Source of the DNA: Solobacterium sp.
GTDB taxonomy: Bacteria; Bacillota_I; Bacilli_A; Erysipelotrichales; Erysipelotrichaceae
NCBI GenBank assembly: GCA_016291725.1
Contig: JAEEYJ010000081.1
Coordinates: forward strand, 1-11,310
Length of the DNA stretch: 11,310 nt
Reading direction: 5' to 3'
Shown here: positions 6,028-11,310 of the stretch, piece by piece
How positions within the stretch are numbered: the first letter of the stretch is position 1
Layout: each line of letters starts with the position of its first letter
Program-made: the position numbers and the translations under genes
The notes under the pieces: model-generated
The model's database searches: none
Seen by the model: only the letters and a program-made list of their open reading frames with translations
Told to the model about the DNA's origin: nothing

Positions 6028-6057
6028 AATGAGGAACTCCGGTTCCTCATTCTTTTT
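6028..6057. terminator. Terminator shared by the XRE-cupin and CHAP genes
   Basis: AATGAGGAAC (6028-6037), loop TCCG, then GTTCCTCATT (6042-6051), a perfect 10-bp stem followed by CTTTTTC on the plus strand. On the minus strand the hairpin is followed by ATTTTAT, so it may work in both directions. The CHAP gene's stop codon (6047-6049) lies inside the stem. Confidence 0.85.
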
Positions 6058-6796
6058 CTATGCCGTTTCCGTTCTGATACGGAGCTGTCAGCTTCTTCGC
6101 AGCTATGCCCGCAGCCCGTTCGAACTGCCTCTCTTCCGCCTGGACATCCAGGATCGCTTCACGCTCTTCATCCTTCAGGGTCTCGGTATCGAGATCGATG
6201 TACATCCGGATCAGCTCTTCTTCATAGCTTTCAATGAGCTGTTCATCCGCAAACGCTGCATCTACAGCCATATCAACGCGCGGCGGTACATAATCGTAGG
6301 TTTCAACGACTTCATCGTAGGTCGGCGCTACGATCTGTGACGCATCTGCCGGGATGTAGATATACCCGATGATGGGACGCCCGAAGCGCGGACCGTAGCC
6401 ATCACACCAGCCTTCGTTGTAGTTGCCCATATACCCGCCTTCCGCAATGTAGATGTTCTGTCCGTCGAAATCAACGACATAGGCAACGTGTCCCGGCCAT
6501 ACAATGACAGAGTTCGCCCGTGGTTCCGTAGATACTTCATATCCCCAGGCAGCCGCATTGGCATACCACTCACCGGCATTTCCCAGCCGGGGCAGCGCTA
6601 CACCGGTAGCGTTGTACACAAGCTGCCAGGCACCCCAGGTACAGTTGGACCAACCACCGTAGTAAGGATTGGGCGCTGTCCAGTTCTCTTCGCCTTCGGC
6701 ATGTGCTTCCATGGCTGCAGCAGGCAGACAGAATACCGTCATCGCCAGGGCTGCCAGAGCCGCAAAGCACTTTCTGATTGTTGCTGTACAATTCAT
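6047..6796 (-). CDS. Secreted CHAP-domain peptidoglycan hydrolase
   Basis: A 249-residue exported protein. Residues 1-33 are a signal peptide (basic N-tip, a hydrophobic FAALAALAMTVFCLPAAA core, likely cleavage after AHA-33). A CHAP domain spans about 45-150, with catalytic Cys52 in SNCTWGAWQLV, His103 in PGHVAYVVD and a likely third residue Glu119 in IAEGGY. CHAP enzymes are cysteine amidases or endopeptidases that cut the peptide part of peptidoglycan. The remaining part (about 155-249) is acidic and probably helical or coiled-coil at 180-235. I recognise no SH3b, LysM or other wall-binding domain. No Shine-Dalgarno precedes the ATG; a promoter (6805-6833) predicts a leader of only about two bases. 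It is divergent from the HTH-TM-RCC1-Fn3 gene, 136 bases away, which suggests a shared envelope role. CHAP assignment is firm; the bond cleaved is unknown. Confidence 0.92.
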   Translation of the reverse strand: MNCTATIRKCFAALAALAMTVFCLPAAAMEAHAEGEENWTAPNPYYGGWSNCTWGAWQLVYNATGVALPRLGNAGEWYANAAAWGYEVSTEPRANSVIVWPGHVAYVVDFDGQNIYIAEGGYMGNYNEGWCDGYGPRFGRPIIGYIYIPADASQIVAPTYDEVVETYDYVPPRVDMAVDAAFADEQLIESYEEELIRMYIDLDTETLKDEEREAILDVQAEERQFERAAGIAAKKLTAPYQNGNGIEKE

Positions 6797-6897: not shown

Positions 6898-6926
6898 TTG
6901 AAAAGAAGAGAGTATCACACTAAAAT
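6898..6926 (+). promoter_or_regulatory. Sigma-A promoter of the HTH-RCC1-Fn3 gene
   Basis: TTGAAA (6898-6903), a 17-base spacer and TAAAAT (6921-6926). The hexamers and spacing are identical to those of the predicted tuf promoter. With the last -10 base as -7, the predicted +1 is 6933, the A of the ATG, so the mRNA should be leaderless. AGGAG at 6927-6931 is one base from the ATG, too close to act as a normal Shine-Dalgarno. Confidence 0.68.
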
Positions 6927-6932
6927 AGGAGT

Positions 6933-9308
6933 ATGACTAATCTGCTGCCTGAAAAACTGACAACCCTGCGCAAACGCTACCACTACGCTCAGGGGGATAT
7001 TGCGGCCAGAATCAATGTGCCGGTCAGTGAGTACATGAAATGGGAGAACGGAAGTACACTCTGCCGGATCGAGCAGCTGATCCTTCTGGCAGACCTTTAC
7101 CGTGTTCCTCTGCAGGCACTGGTGGACAATACCGTTGTACTGGATCTGCCCGATCCGGAACATGATTATGACAGTATAGAGATTCCTTCCTTCAGCGGCA
7201 GCGCAAAGGGGACAGGCATTGAGCTGGACCAGGCACAGGCACAGGAGATCCTGTACGGGATGCCGCCTTCCGAGGACAGTGTAGAGATACCGCTTGCGGA
7301 TGATGTCAGCTACCGGCAGATGGTACCTCCTTCTTCCGGAGATACTGTTAAAGTACCGGCAGTCAGGGAGGAGCCTCTGAGCAATACCCGGGAATTCGCT
7401 TCTACACGGGTAATACAGATCAGTGATATACGTGCGCTGGAACCGGTAAAGCAGGCCGCTGCAGAACCGGAAGAGCCGAAAGAAAACCGTAAAGCGCTCT
7501 ATGTGATTGTTGCCGTAGTACTGGCTCTGGCAGCCGGTCTGCTGCGGATGCTGGGAAACCGGGATCCGGAAGCTCTGGTTCTGCTGGATGTGAACCAGGA
7601 AGACCGTCTGGTGCTGGGAGATCGCTTCTCGGGATATGTCAGTGAACAGTACCGGCTGACGACCATGGGTACAACCGCGGAGCTGACAGGGTTTACGGAT
7701 CTAGTGAAGATCAGTGCAGGTCCGGATGTTCTGCTGGGCCTGAAGCGTGATGGCACTGCAGTGACAACCGGCCGGTATGATACAGCGGACTGGAATCATC
7801 TGGTGGATATCGCAGCCGGAGAGCGGCATATCAGTGCTGCAAAGGACGATGGTACGGTTGTCTGTACCGGAAATGATACAGCCTGCAATGTCTCTCAGTG
7901 GACCGGTATTTCCGCCGTTTACGCCGGCAGGGATCTCACAGCAGGCCTGGACGCGGACGGTCGTCTGCATGTATCCGGCAGCGGAGCACTGGCGGAAGCG
8001 CTGAACGGAAAGAGTCCGGTGAAGGATCTGGCACTGACTGCTGATGGTGCTGTCATCCTGTACCGTGACGGTACAATGGAAACCTTCGGGAATCTGTCTG
8101 CCCTGAAGCCGCAGATGAGCGGTGCGGTATCCGTTGCGGCCGGGAACAGCTTTGCGGCTGTACTGGACAATACAGGAAACGTACGCGTCTTCTGCGCAGA
8201 CAGGGAATTCGGCAGATCCGCGGAAAAATGGACAGGCATACGGTATATCGTCGGCAGGGGAAAGACCCTGATCGCACTGACCTCTGATGGAAAGATCATC
8301 GGCCTCGGTGATAATTTCTACAATGTATACAACAAGGATGCATCATCGGAACCGGTGGAGAAGACCAAACTCGCCTCAGTGGCCAACATCAGCTTCTCGG
8401 TAACAGTCAGCGGACTGGTCATCAACTGGGACAGCGTAGAAAACGCAAAGTATTACGAAGTGATTGTCTCCACACAGCCGCAGACAAAGATGAATTCCGC
8501 AGCGAATTCAGCCAGAATCTCCGACGATAAGCTCGTGGACGGCCAGACCTATACCGTACGCATCACACCGCACGCCTCGGACAAGGAACTCTACGAAGAC
8601 GGCGATCCGGTGGAAGTAACATATACCTATTCCGCTGCCCAGATCCAGCTGGATGCCCCGCAGAATGTACGGGTGAAGCAGGAAGGCAGCACGATCACGG
8701 TCAGCTGGGACAAGGTAAACAAGGCGGACTACTACAACGTTGCGGTAGAGACCATGGTGCAGAAGAGCACCGGCACCTCTATAACTCTGGACGCGACGCA
8801 TCTTACCGATGACAAAAAGTACACGGTCTATGTCACAGCACTGTCCAACAATGCCCGCTATACCGAAAGCAACGGCGGCCAGATGGACTTCACGTATCAT
8901 GCGCCGGTTGTAACTGTCAAGCTGTCTACCCCGGAGATTGCAACGCTGAAGGTCGAGGACAACAATGACTGGACCATTACCTGGAAGGCTGTGGACAGTG
9001 CTGCAGCCTACAAAGTCAGCGTCGGCGATATCGAGATGGATCCGACCACCCAGACATCTGTACGGATTCCTGCCGACCGCCTGACGGACGGCATGTCCTA
9101 CAAGATCCTGATCACCGCTATGCCGGCAGATACAGCGAAGTACGACAACAGCGATACCGCCAGGGAAACCCATACGTACACCGCGCATCAGCCGGAGCCG
9201 ACGGACAGTCCGGAACCGACGGAGAGCCCCGAGCCTACGGACAGTCCGGAGCCGATGGAGAGCCCTGAACCGACGGAAAGCCCGGACGAGGAGGCAGACA
9301 ATGGATAG
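6933..9308 (+). CDS. Single-pass membrane protein: HTH - TM - RCC1-like repeats - three Fn3-like domains
   Basis: A 791-residue multidomain protein I cannot match to a named gene. In order: an XRE-type HTH (about 7-65, with GDIAARINVPVSEYMKWENG); an acidic cytoplasmic linker (66-187) carrying three copies of a short motif D-[ST]-[IV]-[EK]-[IV]-P (80-85, 115-120, 137-142); one membrane helix (about 188-206); six RCC1-like repeats of the AG...L..DG....G type (about 259-460), ending in GLGDNFYNVYN; three Fn3-like domains (about 484-567, 573-656, 664-750); and a Pro/Glu/Ser tail (755-784). Basic residues before the helix (ENRK) predict HTH inside and RCC1/Fn3 outside, like RodZ in topology. There is no LPXTG signal. 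It may be a membrane-tethered regulator or an envelope scaffold. It starts leaderless from the promoter at 6898-6926, is divergent from the CHAP gene, and overlaps the GYF_2 gene by 8 bases. Confidence 0.88.
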   Translation: MTNLLPEKLTTLRKRYHYAQGDIAARINVPVSEYMKWENGSTLCRIEQLILLADLYRVPLQALVDNTVVLDLPDPEHDYDSIEIPSFSGSAKGTGIELDQAQAQEILYGMPPSEDSVEIPLADDVSYRQMVPPSSGDTVKVPAVREEPLSNTREFASTRVIQISDIRALEPVKQAAAEPEEPKENRKALYVIVAVVLALAAGLLRMLGNRDPEALVLLDVNQEDRLVLGDRFSGYVSEQYRLTTMGTTAELTGFTDLVKISAGPDVLLGLKRDGTAVTTGRYDTADWNHLVDIAAGERHISAAKDDGTVVCTGNDTACNVSQWTGISAVYAGRDLTAGLDADGRLHVSGSGALAEALNGKSPVKDLALTADGAVILYRDGTMETFGNLSALKPQMSGAVSVAAGNSFAAVLDNTGNVRVFCADREFGRSAEKWTGIRYIVGRGKTLIALTSDGKIIGLGDNFYNVYNKDASSEPVEKTKLASVANISFSVTVSGLVINWDSVENAKYYEVIVSTQPQTKMNSAANSARISDDKLVDGQTYTVRITPHASDKELYEDGDPVEVTYTYSAAQIQLDAPQNVRVKQEGSTITVSWDKVNKADYYNVAVETMVQKSTGTSITLDATHLTDDKKYTVYVTALSNNARYTESNGGQMDFTYHAPVVTVKLSTPEIATLKVEDNNDWTITWKAVDSAAAYKVSVGDIEMDPTTQTSVRIPADRLTDGMSYKILITAMPADTAKYDNSDTARETHTYTAHQPEPTDSPEPTESPEPTDSPEPMESPEPTESPDEEADNG
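9195..9284 (+). repeat. Five tandem 18-bp units encoding E-P-[TM]-[DE]-S-P
   Basis: Residues 755-784 of the large membrane protein are five hexapeptides: EPTDSP, EPTESP, EPTDSP, EPMESP, EPTESP. The DNA copies differ mainly at third codon positions, so the array is not freshly duplicated. Such tails commonly serve as extended spacers in the wall of Gram-positive surface proteins. Here no anchor follows. Confidence 0.9.
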
Positions 9309-9492
9309 GATCTGGTATTACAGCAAGGGCGGGGAGGAGAACTTCGGTCCGTATACGGAAGAGGATCTCATCCGTCTGCTGCAGAAGCATATTCTCAGTG
9401 AAAACGACTATATCTGGATGAGCCGCCTGGATGACTGGGTCCGGGTCGGTGATTCCATCTATTCTTTCTATTTGGATGAGACGGAAGCGTAG
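9301..9492 (+). CDS. Stand-alone GYF_2 (DUF4339-like) domain protein
   Basis: A 63-residue protein that consists almost entirely of one GYF_2-like domain: WYYSKGGEENFGPYTEEDLIRLL, then SENDYIWMSRLDDWVRV. The key residues are the W-Y-Y start, GPYTEEDL and the W...DW end. GYF folds are known for binding proline-rich peptides; GYF_2 domains in bacteria are usually part of larger membrane proteins and are poorly characterised. There is no signal peptide or membrane segment, so it is probably cytoplasmic. A perfect AGGAGG (9289-9294) lies six bases before the ATG. The gene overlaps the end of the HTH-RCC1-Fn3 gene by 8 bases, which implies translational coupling and a related role. Its partner may be the proline-containing linker of that protein, but this is inference. 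Confidence 0.82.
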   Translation: MDRIWYYSKGGEENFGPYTEEDLIRLLQKHILSENDYIWMSRLDDWVRVGDSIYSFYLDETEA

Positions 9493-9536: not shown

Positions 9537-9818
9537 ATGAAAAAGAAAATGGTGCTGTTCACTGCCATGGTTATGCTGTGCATCTGTACGCTGCCCGGCT
9601 GTGGAGACGTGGATGCCTTGGTCGACTCCGGTTTCTTCAATACCAGGGGCTGGTGGTTTGTTCTCCTGTCCGTAAACTTCTTCATCATCATTGTAATGCT
9701 CAGCTTTCTGAGAAAGCTGAAGAAGGGTCTGACAGACAAACCGATTGCGACTGACAGTTTTACAGAACTCTGCAAAAAGGTCATCGCAATGAAGATCGAA
9801 AGAGAGAACGAGGCCTGA
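9537..9818 (+). CDS. Small membrane protein with lipoprotein-like signal
   Basis: A 93-residue protein I cannot assign to a family. Residues 1-21 are a basic tip (MKKK) and hydrophobic core ending in a lipobox-like LPGC, with Cys22 the potential lipidated residue; Pro at -2 is atypical. A second hydrophobic segment spans about 39-58 (WWFVLLSVNFFIIIVMLSFL), followed by basic RKLKK, which predicts a cytoplasmic C-terminal tail (59-93) with CKKVIAMKIERE. It could be a lipoprotein with one membrane helix or an uncleaved two-helix hairpin. The start is firm: AGGAGG (9523-9528) lies eight bases before the ATG. It has its own extended -10 box, and no terminator separates it from the T-box leader, so transcription may run on towards cysS. 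It is a plausible envelope partner of the upstream genes, but only by proximity. Confidence 0.75.
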   Translation: MKKKMVLFTAMVMLCICTLPGCGDVDALVDSGFFNTRGWWFVLLSVNFFIIIVMLSFLRKLKKGLTDKPIATDSFTELCKKVIAMKIERENEA

Positions 9819-10078: not shown

Positions 10079-11310
10079 ATGATTAAAGTCTATAATTCAA
10101 AGACATTGAAAACAGAAGAGTTCAAACCGAAGACAGAAGGTCAGGTCAGCATGTACATCTGCGGTCCGACCGTCTACAACTATGCGCATATCGGCAATGC
10201 CCGGCCGATGATCGTATTCGATGTATTCAAGCGCCTGCTGGAAGCGGAAGGATACAAAGTGAAGTACGCTTCCAACTTTACGGATGTCGACGATAAGATC
10301 ATCAACAAGGCTGCCGAGGAAGGCGTCAGCGAGAACGAAATCTCCGAACGTTATATCAAGGCGTACAACGATCTGCGCCATCAGCTGAATGTAGAAATGC
10401 CGGACATCACACCGAGGGTTACAGAGACCATGGACGGAATCATTGAGTTCGTCGATGAACTGGTCAAGAGCGGCCATGCGTACATCGTGGACAATGATGT
10501 CTACTTCTCCGTGGATTCCGTGCCTACCTACGGCCAGATCAGCCACCAGAAGCTGGATTACCTGGAAGCCGGCGCCCGTATTGAAGAGAATGAACTGAAG
10601 CGCAACCCGTATGATTTCGTTCTCTGGAAGAAGACGGACAAGGGCATCAAGTGGGACAGCCCGTGGGGACCGGGACGCCCGGGATGGCATACAGAGTGCG
10701 TCGTCATGATCAACGAGAACTTCGGCGGTCCGATCGATATCCACGGCGGCGGAATGGACCTGCGCTTCCCGCATCATGAGAACGAGTCTGCCCAGCATGA
10801 AGCACTGCACAATGAAGATCTGGCAAACTACTGGATGCACAACGCAATGATCAACATCAACGGTGAAAAGATGTCCAAGTCCCTGGGCAATGTACTGTGG
10901 GCGATGGATGTTGCCGCAAAGCTGGGAACGAACCTGACCAGATGGCTGATGAGCTCTGTCCATTACCGCAAGGAACTGAACTTCAGCGATGAGACGATCG
11001 AGACCGCCCGCAAGGAACTGGACCGGGTACTCACTCCGGTACGCCAGGCTGACCTGAAGGCTGCGTTTGCCGGCGTCACCTACGGTGATGCGTTTGACCA
11101 GGAGTCCTGGGACGCGTTCATTGAGCAGATGAATGACGATATGAATACACCGAACGCCTACCAGGTCATCTTCGAAACCGTCAAGAAGTTGAATACAGCA
11201 CTTCGTCAGCGGGAGATCGATTACACAGCTGTGGAAAAGTACCGCAACGCTGTGGAAAAAATGTTGAATATCCTGGGGATTGTTGTGGAAAAGCCGGAAG
11301 TCACGGAAGA
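10079..11310 (+). CDS. cysS: Cysteinyl-tRNA synthetase (3' end outside window)
   Basis: The first 410 codons of class I CysRS, which joins cysteine to tRNA-Cys; about 50-60 C-terminal residues are missing because the frame is still open at the window end. The zinc site is complete: Cys28 (in YICGPTVYNYAHIG), Cys207 (in HTECVVM), and His232 and Glu236 (in RFPHHENE). The HIGH signature is HIGN (37-40) and KMSKS is 264-268. GMDLRFPHHENE and the AHIGNAR region are typical of CysRS. The start ATG at 10079 follows GAGG (10064-10067) and GGG (10073-10075); ribosome binding is moderate. The gene begins 22 bases after the T-run of its Cys T-box, so expression should rise when tRNA-Cys is uncharged. 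Identification is certain. Confidence 0.98.
   Translation, partial: MIKVYNSKTLKTEEFKPKTEGQVSMYICGPTVYNYAHIGNARPMIVFDVFKRLLEAEGYKVKYASNFTDVDDKIINKAAEEGVSENEISERYIKAYNDLRHQLNVEMPDITPRVTETMDGIIEFVDELVKSGHAYIVDNDVYFSVDSVPTYGQISHQKLDYLEAGARIEENELKRNPYDFVLWKKTDKGIKWDSPWGPGRPGWHTECVVMINENFGGPIDIHGGGMDLRFPHHENESAQHEALHNEDLANYWMHNAMININGEKMSKSLGNVLWAMDVAAKLGTNLTRWLMSSVHYRKELNFSDETIETARKELDRVLTPVRQADLKAAFAGVTYGDAFDQESWDAFIEQMNDDMNTPNAYQVIFETVKKLNTALRQREIDYTAVEKYRNAVEKMLNILGIVVEKPEVTE

Follow-up and report, generated by a model that had tools for sequence, protein, structure and literature searches.

An HTH-transmembrane receptor with an RCC1-like propeller, an Fn3 arm, and a constant GYF_2 neighbor gene in Solobacterium

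The gene at positions 6933 to 9308 of a Solobacterium contig (JAEEYJ010000081.1; "the window" is the whole stretch of 11,310 nucleotides that was analyzed) encodes a large protein, here called the receptor. An XRE-type helix-turn-helix (HTH) domain, one transmembrane (TM) helix, an RCC1-like propeller, Fn3 domains, and a Pro/Glu/Ser tail follow one another along its chain, and a gene for a small GYF_2 protein, which resembles peptide readers, adjoins it constantly. The receptor looks like a device passing signals from the cell surface to genes. With somewhat better than even confidence, we read it as a membrane-tethered one-component regulator with the propeller/Fn3 ectodomain as its sensor and the GYF protein as its cytoplasmic partner. 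The features concerned are as follows.

6047..6796, minus strand: gene for a CHAP-domain protein (PF05257), divergent from the receptor gene
6898..6926, plus strand: promoter-like TTGAAA-17-TAAAAT, its second hexamer ending 6 nt before the receptor ATG
6933..9308, plus strand: HTH-TM-RCC1-Fn3 receptor gene, 791 aa (open reading frame list, Pfam, structure model)
6945..7124, plus strand: XRE/HTH_3 domain, residues 5-64 (HTH_3 above cut-off, helices in the model)
7131..7490, plus strand: linker, residues 67-186, predicted disordered for the most part
7491..7553, plus strand: single TM helix, residues 187-207
7596..8342, plus strand: seven-bladed RCC1-like propeller, residues 222-470 (predicted structure, structural matches)
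8382..9182, plus strand: Fn3 arm, about residues 484-566, 574-660, and 664-750
9183..9305, plus strand: Pro/Glu/Ser-rich tail, residues 751-791 (sequence and model)
9301..9492, plus strand: gene for the GYF_2 protein, 63 aa (PF14237, 42.9 bits against a cut-off of 25.8), overlapping the receptor 3' end by 8 bp
10079..11308, plus strand: cysS (PF01406), truncated by the window end, a frequent downstream landmark

Architecture of the receptor

Pfam and the structure model bear out the first-pass annotation of this DNA in placing an HTH, a single TM helix, a propeller, Fn3 domains, and a Pro/Glu/Ser tail in one protein. No family with such a domain order exceeds the Pfam or NCBIfam cut-offs, in keeping with the remark made there that none was known by name. 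The propeller, to which six blades had been ascribed, has a seven-bladed RCC1 fold in the predicted structure, and the fold comparison agrees; VIA-align structural comparison assessed only residues 220 to 470 well, and the best structural match of the propeller is the ectodomain of a plant receptor kinase. Two cysteines of one propeller hairpin, C311 and C318 (7863-7865, 7884-7886), are invariant in 18 aligned homologues and might form a disulfide, bind a metal, or act in redox chemistry. The fn3 family lies above its Pfam cut-off with two stretches in the receptor, the third Fn3 domain comes from the model only, and the Foldseek matches are to fibronectin fragments. These domains had been described as a stalk; because the propeller stands nearest the membrane, with the Fn3 domains further out, they form an outer arm instead.

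In the model of the window protein, pLDDT falls below 50 at linker residues 74 to 98 and at 105 to 188. The linker measures 23 to 136 aa among 29 relatives. Such a long disordered linker in the window protein would suit regulated proteolysis, in which the ectodomain is shed, the HTH is freed into the cytoplasm, and the GYF protein acts on the freed linker, and release of this kind is known in other membrane regulators. However, 13 of the 14 other-genus sequences have a linker of just 23 to 43 aa, and we consider this course of events quite improbable. The TM helix is single, and in 17 of 18 sequences, the remaining one being a tie, Lys/Arg residues are more numerous on its N-terminal side; the positive-inside bias is absent from L086, L087, L091, and L097, loci of other genera. 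We infer a topology with the N terminus in the cytoplasm.

Conservation of the receptor and its GYF_2 neighbor

With the full protein as the query, a receptor match at E≤1e-5 is found in 77 of 120 related genomes. Of the 70 genomes of the genus, 66 match, among them that of the window; several of these matches are fragments at contig ends, that of G054 covers residues 599 to 770 only, and no match was obtained in G016, G035, G047, and G052. Solobacterium sp. MAGs, Lactimicrobium massiliense, and further Erysipelotrichaceae make up the named relatives, apart from an Oscillospiraceae MAG that matches the HTH only. At the order and class level, only short HTH, RCC1, Fn3, or tail pieces match. A query with a receptor from another genus matched 136 of the 272 genomes of the family at E≤1e-12, many over the propeller part only; these belong to 15 of 59 genera. 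A phylum search with the distant relative P0039, scoring at most two candidates per genome, matched 8 of 392 genomes, all from the same family.

The 20 loci that we examined, top-ranked and not random, come from 19 genomes; 18 of these fall outside the genus and represent 7 other genera. BLAST finds a receptor-like frame in all 20, and the HTH plus TM were seen in 19 (the printed frame of L098 is a different one). HTH-TM-RCC1 frames are present in the seven other genera, and Pfam recognizes HTH and RCC1_2 in six receptor proteins from six of these genera, HTH_3 being slightly below cut-off in L086. The window's genome is fragmented (218 contigs, 80.9% complete), as would befit a local gene fusion or assembly artifact, one of the cases named in the first-pass annotation as fatal to its claim. 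Yet homologues within the genus keep the HTH, TM, propeller, and Fn3 parts in the same order, and relatives do so down to 26-30% identity, including the named isolate Lactimicrobium massiliense; together with the HTH-TM-RCC1 proteins of other genera, this refutes a local fusion or artifact. We regard the receptor as vertically kept.

The survey of neighbors proposed in that annotation turned up a co-occurring linked gene that its author had overlooked, the GYF_2 gene. It is found in 63 of the 70 genus genomes, all 63 of which also hold a receptor match, and in 63 of 63 it closely follows the receptor gene on the same strand, with no more than 485 bp between it and the matched receptor part. 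Of the seven genus genomes that lack the GYF gene, four have no receptor match and three (G010, G065, G067) have receptor fragments. In the same set of examined loci, a GYF frame adjoins the receptor frame in 20 of 20. The GYF_2 protein model (pLDDT 85.6) has the fold of known GYF structures, with TMq values of 0.65 to 0.69; among them are GIGYF2, Myxococcus GltJ, and Smy2 bound to a Pro-rich peptide. GYF structures appear within the top 16 Foldseek rows, where none reaches E≤0.001. Because the best Foldseek match reaches only 3.3e-3, to a chloroplast TOC-TIC chain, the assignment is a fold match backed by Pfam and not a strong Foldseek match.

Invariant columns in 12 GYF sequences include W5, Y7, G16, P17, and W39; the hallmark GP is missing from the G071 protein. 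In the receptor linker, Pro is absent from 6 of 29 sequences and occurs one to three times in most others from other genera, and a Pro-rich GYF docking site there was rejected because Pro content is not conserved across genera. Since linker Pro is not conserved and GP is lost in G071, a simple contact of GYF with the linker is not a family rule.

Downstream of the GYF gene, on the same contig and strand, cysS follows at 69 to 8,899 bp in 42 of the 62 genomes with both, and gapA lies upstream in part of the loci. In G070, from another genus of the family, gapA is followed by cysS without a receptor match, and 13 regions upstream of cysS at the order or class level (only 3.5 kb in L084) gave no match to the receptor or GYF protein. 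A 93-aa open reading frame at 9537-9818 of the window has a second hydrophobic stretch besides a possible lipoprotein signal with the motif LPGC; it has no match above the Pfam or NCBIfam cut-offs, and among the loci compared a relative occurs at one place only, represented by both L007 and L036. At 2058-2788, the window also carries a barnase-type ribonuclease gene and then an overlapping barstar gene (PF00545, PF01337).

Functional readings of the HTH and the ectodomain

The receptor HTH_3 match scores 26.2 bits against a Pfam cut-off of 23, which places a recognized DNA-binding-type domain in the same chain as the TM helix. Over the HTH, profile searches of solved structures matched one unnamed protein and otherwise chains that bear the names of transcriptional regulators, namely DdrOC, an XRE-family regulator, and a repressor named LexA. 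In 29 receptor sequences, K8, L9, L12, R13, A24, Y34, E38, N39, G40, and N66 are invariant and Q20 stands at 0.97; we take these residues to be positions conserved in DNA-binding XRE domains, and the ENG motif typical of XRE regulators is retained, as is Q20. In a separate scan, a defense system was considered and rejected: the sole match of the receptor was HTH_VI (E 0.0054), and the other three proteins scanned had no match.

The HTH is also the best-conserved receptor domain. Mean identity over 15 nearer sequences is 0.60 for the HTH, 0.45 for the first Fn3 domain, 0.42 for the propeller, 0.33 and 0.30 for the second and third Fn3 domains, 0.29 for the TM helix, and 0.28 for the linker, and against 14 sequences of other genera it is 0.43 for the HTH, 0.28 for the propeller, and 0.26 for the first Fn3 domain. 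An output part that is conserved while the input part drifts is the pattern expected for a receptor. The distal Fn3 parts are the most variable regions besides the linker and TM helix, and C-terminal parts of surface type differ among relatives, with Flg_new above cut-off in P0006 and MucBP slightly below it in P0033. Fn3, Flg_new, and MucBP-like parts are common in surface proteins, and both their presence and the variability of the distal arm would fit a surface adhesin or wall-binding protein whose HTH serves for anchoring or clustering and regulates nothing. Such a protein is at odds with an HTH that is the most conserved domain and with a constant neighbor, the GYF protein, that has no signal peptide or TM segment in the sequences read, and we judge it unlikely.

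Toward other genera, the BLAST alignments of the receptors extend to about residue 566, i.e., through the first Fn3 domain, and fn3 has no Pfam match in the six receptor proteins from six other genera, G071 included. In 13 other-genus loci (L086, L088-L091, L094-L097, L099, L100, L102, L103), the later Fn3 domains are not found, and the proteins end in a common domain that is about 76 aa long, contains two Cys, and is only weakly PASTA-like. A PASTA identity was not established for this domain: the one Pfam match (E 0.16) is below cut-off, a PDB profile search gave no PASTA match, hhalign against eight local PASTA units gave a probability of 69.5% for a local alignment of 35 columns and of 7.3% for a global one, and hmmsearch with the local PASTA model gave at most 10.6 bits. 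A 593-aa frame elsewhere in the window's genome (G000:C104:1125-1604) has PASTA matches and a stretch like the receptor Pro/Glu/Ser tail.

XRE-type HTHs may also serve as protein-binding modules, as in RodZ, which has an N-terminal HTH, a linker, one TM helix, and an extracytoplasmic beta-rich part. The receptor shares this gross layout, and the first-pass annotation had proposed a RodZ-like scaffold. In such a scaffold, the HTH would bind a cytoskeletal or wall-synthesis protein instead of DNA, and the ectodomain would be in contact with the wall. The receptor differs from RodZ in having HTH_3 and not HTH_25, and neither HTH_25 nor the RodZ C-terminal family matches it in Pfam at E≤1. MreC is found in none of the 70 genus genomes by a search that is positive in 8 of 14 controls. 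Only one of the 70, G016, has a strong MreB match (367.9 bits, 341-aa frame), and its contents need care because neither the receptor nor cysS was found there. MreB_Mbl gives some match in 63 of the 70 genomes, yet all but that of G016 are at most 78.5 bits and most lie in frames above 500 aa; from size and score, these appear to be DnaK-like. HTH_25 exceeds its cut-off in 20 of the 70 genomes, those listed being mostly partial and in short frames, so some genus genomes may hold a separate RodZ gene. On HTH_3, the missing C-terminal family, and the sparse MreB and MreC, membership of the receptor in RodZ was rejected. The lack of MreC and the single strong MreB match were observed although Solobacterium moorei is termed a bacillus (PMC8229177).

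The scaffold proposal itself is weakened by these results and by the retained Q20 and ENG motif. It draws some support from the shared layout, from the CHAP gene that adjoins the receptor in one clade, and from S. pneumoniae, where RodZ seems to act as a scaffold without MreB (PMC10936418); on balance, we hold it to be improbable.

The promoter-like element before the receptor is one of 4 found in a scan of the region against 2.4 expected, which taken alone is no evidence. Its form is nevertheless conserved: TTG-N18..24-TANAAT is present in 26 of 28 homologous upstream regions against at most 4 in shuffles. The window's own region was left out of this set as a near-duplicate of L006, and of 34 regions 6 were dropped, four for an uncertain start position (L010, L014, L045, L030) and two because they are distant (L050, L069). 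The distance from hexamer start to ATG is 12 nt in the window and in two of the 28 homologous regions, whereas it is 25 to 47 nt in the other 26; since the second hexamer ends so near the ATG in the window, the receptor transcript may be leaderless. No palindrome suggestive of an autoregulatory operator is clearly enriched in the 28 regions; AAATA-N12-TATTT is present in 3, against at most 2 in shuffles, which is too weak a signal to rely on. In 9 genomes, among them that of the window, a CHAP gene and the receptor gene diverge with 110 to 228 bp between them. A CHAP match exists in 57 of the 70 genus genomes, and those outside these 9 have it on other contigs or far away (by eye). This divergence is a clade trait, and it suggests the CHAP gene as a candidate target in the window's clade without proving it.

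The membrane-tethered transcription factor also put forward in the first-pass annotation still gives the best reading of the receptor. The N-terminal XRE HTH would be cytoplasmic and DNA bound, and joined by a flexible linker and one TM helix to the extracytoplasmic propeller near the membrane, from which the Fn3 arm would project outward, propeller and arm forming the input. A bound ligand, whether wall material, a glycan, or a protein, would alter receptor dimerization or clustering and in turn operator occupancy, and the GYF_2 protein would be the cytoplasmic partner that sets HTH activity or bridges the HTH to another protein. It is possible, if rather doubtful, that the pair represents a new two-protein, enzyme-free type of transmembrane signaling in which a dedicated GYF adaptor, the product of the overlapping gene, switches the cytoplasmic XRE HTH of a propeller/Fn3 receptor; the pair would then sense the wall or surface, as a trait of this family, in bacteria that lack an MreB/MreC elongasome.

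Relation to known systems and significance

Transmembrane transcription regulators (TTRs) are a known kind (PMC10269533). Like those of the ToxR/CadC type, the receptor joins a DNA-binding domain and a TM helix in one protein; it differs from known TTRs in its XRE HTH instead of a winged helix, its RCC1 propeller and Fn3 ectodomain, and its pairing with a constant GYF gene. Trans_reg_C, the winged helix of CadC/ToxR, is absent from the receptor Pfam matches at E≤1, and HTH_3, Xre, RCC1, and propeller go unmentioned in the main text of the TTR survey PMC10269533. The propellers of BLIP-II and eukaryotic RCC1/UVR8 show 16-21% identity in three rows, and that of the receptor differs from them in sitting in a membrane protein. 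CRINKLY4 plant receptor kinases have 12% identity to the receptor, and CRINKLY4 is a plant protein with a kinase output and a topology opposite to that of the receptor. GIGYF2, Smy2, and Myxococcus GltJ have the GYF fold in common with the partner, which is a free-standing 63-aa protein.

Nearer parallels lie among bacterial proteins. We obtained 105 profile hits at E≤1e-10, with a profile that contained the receptors themselves and was scored only against the 7,995 candidates with the most words in common; in precomputed Pfam data, RCC1 is accompanied by an HTH in 23 of the 105, by a protein kinase in 10, and by TIR in 3. All four kinase proteins fetched (P0030, P0034, P0051, P0082) show by eye a Ser/Thr kinase, a hydrophobic segment, and RCC1 repeats on its far side. 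As in the receptor, RCC1_2 repeats are thus set across a hydrophobic segment from a signaling domain, but with a kinase where the receptor has its HTH. The joining of RCC1 to HTH, kinase, or TIR domains indicates that this propeller type is reused on signaling proteins.

Among the open-license PMC papers listed, we found no prior description of an HTH-TM-RCC1-Fn3 receptor and none naming RodZ, RCC1, and helix-turn-helix together; a large receptor with a constant neighbor gene has no function described in the sources searched. The named isolate Lactimicrobium massiliense carries the receptor/GYF pair, which makes the question testable. The receptor and its constant neighbor offer a handle on surface sensing in a gut and oral genus in which MreC was not found and strong MreB occurs in one genome. 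If the receptor is a regulator, TTRs would extend to XRE HTHs with propeller ectodomains, and free-standing bacterial GYF proteins would gain a candidate role in gene control.
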